Source: a bacterium (GTDB taxonomy: Bacteria; Pseudomonadota; Alphaproteobacteria; Rickettsiales; RI-342). From it: DNA of 44,466 nucleotides. The notes below the pieces were generated by a model. The model made no database searches. It was not told the origin of the DNA and saw nothing but the letters and a program-made list of their open reading frames with translations. The stretch lies in contig WGMV01000029.1 in the NCBI GenBank assembly GCA_016124905.1, positions 1-44,466 of the forward strand, in the 5' to 3' direction. The translations under genes and the position numbers were made by a program. Below are positions 313-388 of the stretch, piece after piece (position 1 is the stretch's first letter; each line of letters begins with the position of its first letter).

Positions 313-343
313 GGATGGGGTCCTTTCCAAAAATGATGGACGG

Positions 344-372
344 AATCTAGCGCGGCCAATGGTTAATAACAA
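344..372 (-). promoter_or_regulatory. Candidate promoter of the small secreted-protein gene
   Basis: On the minus strand, TTGTTA (367-372) and TAGATT (344-349) are separated by exactly 17 bases. Each matches four of six sigma70 consensus positions. The -10 element overlaps a GAATC/GATTC site (343-347), the GANTC sequence methylated by CcrM in alphaproteobacteria. The -35 lies within the CtrA-type repeat. The start codon is 32 bases downstream of the -10. This is a sequence-based prediction. Confidence 0.5.
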
Positions 373-388
373 GTTAAACTTTTGTTAA
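363..388. promoter_or_regulatory. Double CtrA-type box, TTAA-N7-TTAA-N7-TTAA
   Basis: TTAA occurs at 363-366, 374-377 and 385-388, each separated by exactly seven bases. This gives two overlapping copies of the CtrA consensus TTAA-N7-TTAA, with an 11-bp period. On the minus strand the gene-proximal end also reads TTAACCAT, a known CtrA half-site variant. The array lies between divergent genes and covers the -35 region of the promoter at 344-372, the usual position for CtrA-activated promoters in Caulobacter. Binding by CtrA is an inference. Confidence 0.65.

Follow-up and report, generated by a model that had tools for sequence, protein, structure and literature searches.

A probable CtrA-activated promoter with three half-sites in register upstream of a small secreted protein gene in a Rickettsiales bacterium

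A contig of 44,466 nucleotides from a bacterium of the Rickettsiales lineage RI-342 (GenBank assembly GCA_016124905.1, contig WGMV01000029.1; the whole stretch is referred to here as the window) carries, between two divergent genes, three TTAA tetramers, a GANTC site, and promoter-like hexamers. This arrangement raises the question of whether CtrA, a master regulator in alphaproteobacteria, controls a promoter at this locus, which of the two genes it would serve, and whether DNA methylation by CcrM contributes. The minus-strand gene (312 to 58), called from its open reading frame and codon-usage score, encodes an 84-residue protein with a signal-peptide-like start and no match in Pfam or NCBIfam. 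It is preceded by the Shine-Dalgarno-like sequence GGAAAGGA (321 to 328, minus strand; 8 bases ahead of the ATG) and followed on the same strand by a strong intrinsic terminator (34 to 3) consisting of a 12-pair hairpin and six T residues, with a predicted folding energy of −24.5 kcal/mol and a z-score of −5.5. Because of this terminator the gene looks like a one-gene unit, complete with ribosome site and secreted open reading frame. The plus-strand gene (498 to 1250) encodes a putative porin of the TorF family (TIGR02001, 184.6 bits versus a cut-off of 47.15; PF09694, 144.6 versus 24).

The tetramers occupy positions 363 to 366, 374 to 377, and 385 to 388 and are separated by gaps of exactly 7 bases, so that the two overlapping CtrA boxes proposed in the preliminary description are exact in the sequence. 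The proximal box, TTAACTTGTTATTAA (363 to 377), and the distal box, TTAACAAAAGTTTAA (374 to 388), both assigned to the minus strand, each match TTAA-N7-TTAA without deviation and have the middle half-site in common. Read along the minus strand, the element is composed in full of TTAAC, AAAAGT, TTAAC, TTGTTA, TTAACCAT, TGGCCGC, and GCTAGATT; i.e., the pattern TTAAC-N6-TTAAC-N6-TTAACCAT unites two overlapping full boxes with the ungapped 8-mer TTAACCAT (359 to 366) and is followed by the −10-like element GCTAGATT. The 8-mer, a form of the CtrA motif also given in PMC9791040, occurs only once in the window, both strands counted. On the minus strand a C follows each of the three half-sites, in the plus direction only one of them; this, together with the last half-site being part of the full 8-mer, indicates that the element is directed at the minus-strand gene. 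Judged from its letters, this is a real and unusually complete predicted CtrA site.

An AT-rich intergenic region could by chance hold three TTAA tetramers that happen to fall into register, with CtrA inactive at the site. Indeed, when the 185-base intergenic region (40% GC) was shuffled, at least three TTAA tetramers appeared in 55% of the shuffles, and about 20 N7 pairs would be expected in the genome from the counts at neighboring spacers. Against this, only 0.045% of the shuffles gave an N7 triple (3.5% gave an N7 pair), and none of 50,000 gave the oriented TTAAC triple; besides the triple, the region has the TTAACCAT form (2% of the shuffles) and a −10-like element whose distance is close to the expected one. 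Across the window, two TTAA-N7-TTAA matches were seen versus 0.22 expected, a number reached in 2 of 100 shuffles, and none of the genome's other N7 sites (35 in all) forms a second triple. We consequently regard a chance arrangement as unlikely.

The genome (2.36 Mb in 47 contigs, 95% complete) encodes ChpT as well as a CtrA that is 68 to 69% identical to Caulobacter CtrA over 227 to 229 residues; the segment EPELKIIDVFICKLRKKL is identical in the two proteins. A scan for TTAA-N7-TTAA yielded 35 copies, whereas spacers of 4 to 6 and 8 to 10 bases total 121, or about 20 each (Poisson P of about 0.002 for the N7 excess). The motif is thus over-represented, and, by the same comparison, about 20 of the 35 sites may be background, which counts against the promoter reading. 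A simple gene caller based on codon usage places 30 of the 35 sites between genes, which is weak evidence because most pairs with other spacers are intergenic as well. A stronger sign that the motif is used is positional: with the box oriented towards a downstream gene, 8 of 35 oriented N7 sites have a CTA starting at offset 25, where about 0.5 would be expected, compared with 1 of 37 control pairs with other spacers. The binomial P value of 3e-8 for this offset is uncorrected for multiple testing (four patterns, 60 offsets), counts some sites in both directions, and refers to the same sites on which the pattern was found. This fixed offset agrees with the position of activating full boxes in Caulobacter, which begin at about −39, as in ctrA P2 (PMC4287350). 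TATAAT-like hexamers, in contrast to CTA, gave no clear peak by offset, and AATT-N7-AATT, considered as a control for N7 counts across the order, was set aside since it varies strongly between genomes.

Neighbors of the N7 boxes include dnaN, two M23 peptidases, CarD, a second porin, and a gene with a pilin-type N-terminal match slightly under the family cut-off. Three further arrangements of TTAA were recorded in the genome: a second three-half-site cluster, TTAA-N5-TTAA-N7-TTAA, upstream of dnaN (L004, about 1492 to 1515; G000:C7:3913-3936); five TTAA tetramers within 41 bases, with spacers of 6, 5, 6, and 4, upstream of a secA-like gene (L058, about 1500 to 1541; G000:C8:14441-14481); and a tandem 13-base repeat resembling TTAAA(C/A)GGGCCGG with four TTAA-N9-TTAA matches (G000:C8:27297-27352, in L059).

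A minus-strand promoter had been proposed next to the boxes. The hexamers TTGTTA (372 to 367, within the proximal box) and TAGATT (349 to 344) are placed as described, with a spacer of 17 bases; as σ70 elements both are weak, each matching the consensus at only four of six positions, and an automated promoter scan did not report the pair. The −10 region reads better as GCTAGATT (344 to 351, minus strand), which is close to GCTANAWC, a form taken by the −10 element of alphaproteobacterial promoters. Measured from the proximal box, its CTA has an offset of 27, two bases more than the genome mode of 25, and this is the chief local weakness of the promoter reading. A −10 element at 349 to 344 would place the transcription start near position 337 and the proximal box at about −40, in agreement with the approximately −39 of activating full boxes in Caulobacter (PMC4287350).

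Taken together, the oriented triple, the presence of ctrA and chpT, the N7 excess, and the CTA signature suggest that the site is probably a CtrA-activated promoter of the gene for the 84-residue secreted protein, the target also named in the preliminary description and a probable one in view of the orientation of the element and the gene's ribosome site and terminator. Phosphorylated CtrA would bind the proximal box, straddling the −35 region, and recruit RNA polymerase to GCTAGATT; the distal box, through the common middle half-site, may raise occupancy or alter the response to the CtrA level. The resulting transcript would run from near 337 to the terminator, with some 25 bases of leader. 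We infer the binding, the activation, the start site, and the role of the third half-site.

Several known systems resemble this arrangement. As in Caulobacter promoters of the ctrA P2 type (PMC4287350), TTAA-N7-TTAA overlaps the −35 region and begins some 40 bases upstream of the predicted start; unlike those full-motif promoters, the present site, known from its sequence, has two overlapping boxes with a common half-site instead of one box. More than one CtrA site per promoter, with one of them at −35, is also found at Caulobacter pilA and hemE Ps (PMC11264516), where the sites are separate and partly off-consensus, in contrast to the three exact half-sites in one register seen here. CtrA targets of Ehrlichia chaffeensis (PMC9791040), a member of probably the same order, feature TTAA-N7-TTAAC and include an outer-membrane protein gene; they are other genes, with binding tested there and predicted here. 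The promoter is thus probably a fresh instance of an already known promoter kind.

A more elaborate proposal held that the CtrA boxes act together with CcrM methylation of a GANTC site in the −10 region to time the promoter in the cell cycle. GAATC does overlap the −10 element (343 to 347). However, no CcrM-like protein was matched in the 95% complete genome with Caulobacter CcrM as the query (used without a positive control), and GcrA (PF07750) was not found there either, the corresponding Caulobacter control being positive. The only PF01555 methylase gene in the genome, detected by a search that was positive in Caulobacter, adjoins a gene for a helicase-like restriction subunit, which suggests that the methylase belongs to a type III restriction system; this probable restriction-modification system is located at L046 (G000:C2:105000-116000). 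Part of the Rickettsiales has been reported to lack both CcrM and GcrA (Brilli et al., PMC2877005). Moreover, a −10 element of the form GCTAGATTC contains GATTC in any case. The GANTC site, being without a known writer or reader, is probably incidental, and we infer that it plays no methylation role; because 5% of the genome is missing, the absence of CcrM and GcrA is not entirely certain. The combined model is very improbable; of the two genes expected for it, ctrA is present and ccrM was not found. A GANTC site by itself carries no statistical significance, and GANTC is under-represented across the window (87 sites, about 1 per 500 bases, versus 143 expected from shuffles) despite CcrM not being found. 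Caulobacter ctrA P1, cited as a precedent, likewise has GANTC and TTAA near one promoter, but does not serve as one: there, GANTC is located near −29 and the CtrA half site, at −14, is a repressing one (PMC4287350), whereas here GANTC is in the −10 element, full boxes are at −35, and CcrM and GcrA were not found.

CtrA might also bind the site and mainly control the divergent porin, or serve both genes, as an activator of one and a repressor of the other. Precedents are the single CtrA site common to Caulobacter flgB and fliO, with opposite effects (PMC6180460), and the binding of Ehrlichia CtrA to the ompA promoter (PMC9791040). In the plus direction, however, neither box has a −10-like element at activating distance, and the C residues point towards the small gene, so that control of the porin, as put forward earlier, is unsupported.

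Relatives of the two genes bear on the same point. TorF relatives occur in 8 of 344 genomes of the order, including the source genome; the porin as a single query gave no match in a contig scan, and a TorF alignment as the query retrieved 80 loci. For the small protein, a single-sequence search in 88 genomes returned only itself, and a four-row profile run against 344 genomes gave good scores only for its own building rows, other matches having E values of 0.02 or worse and lying mostly within long reading frames. Both genes are missing in the sister genome of the family, a point against the promoter reading. Divergent pairs of a TorF gene and a small secreted protein gene recur at L023 and L024, which represent two further families of the order; their small proteins resemble the 84-residue protein in little beyond PAAG, and this motif could be convergent in short alanine-rich proteins instead of inherited. 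The pairs from the three families span 58 to 1250 of the window, 520 to 2196 of L023, and 849 to 1980 of L024; at L023, two of these small genes follow one another.

The only N7 box at L024 is 129 bases upstream of the porin start (124 and 135 bases for the two boxes here), a placement reached in 0.35% of shuffles. Since this box nearly touches the start codon of the small gene, it cannot act there in the way the boxes apparently do in the source genome; activation of the small gene at L024 is thus unlikely, which favors the porin as the target. L023, on the other hand, has no N7 site with fewer than three mismatches, so that one of the two relatives with the gene pair is without a comparable box, which also counts against the promoter reading. 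None of 78 further TorF loci has a box at the corresponding place, a single one having N7 sites within 700 bases, at the distant positions −660 and −671. The idea that TorF genes in general have a conserved box was accordingly rejected. Conservation in relatives thus holds for the gene pair and is only suggestive for the box, and control directed mainly at the porin, or at both genes, appears improbable. That the divergent TorF porin and the PAAG-containing small secreted protein form an old CtrA-controlled module of the order, in a lineage without CcrM and GcrA, is a tentative proposal with the odds against it.

If the small gene is indeed activated by CtrA, an envelope gene joins those controlled by CtrA in a lineage that has been little studied. 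With a box and CTA at a fixed distance as the criterion, candidate CtrA-activated promoters of this lineage could be listed from the genome sequence by itself. That CcrM and GcrA are apparently absent helps set an older CtrA circuit apart from the methylation layer of Caulobacter. The pair of porin and small protein is a modest lead; were it a module as proposed, CtrA would through it have an output in the envelope of a lineage that lacks the CcrM/GcrA layer.
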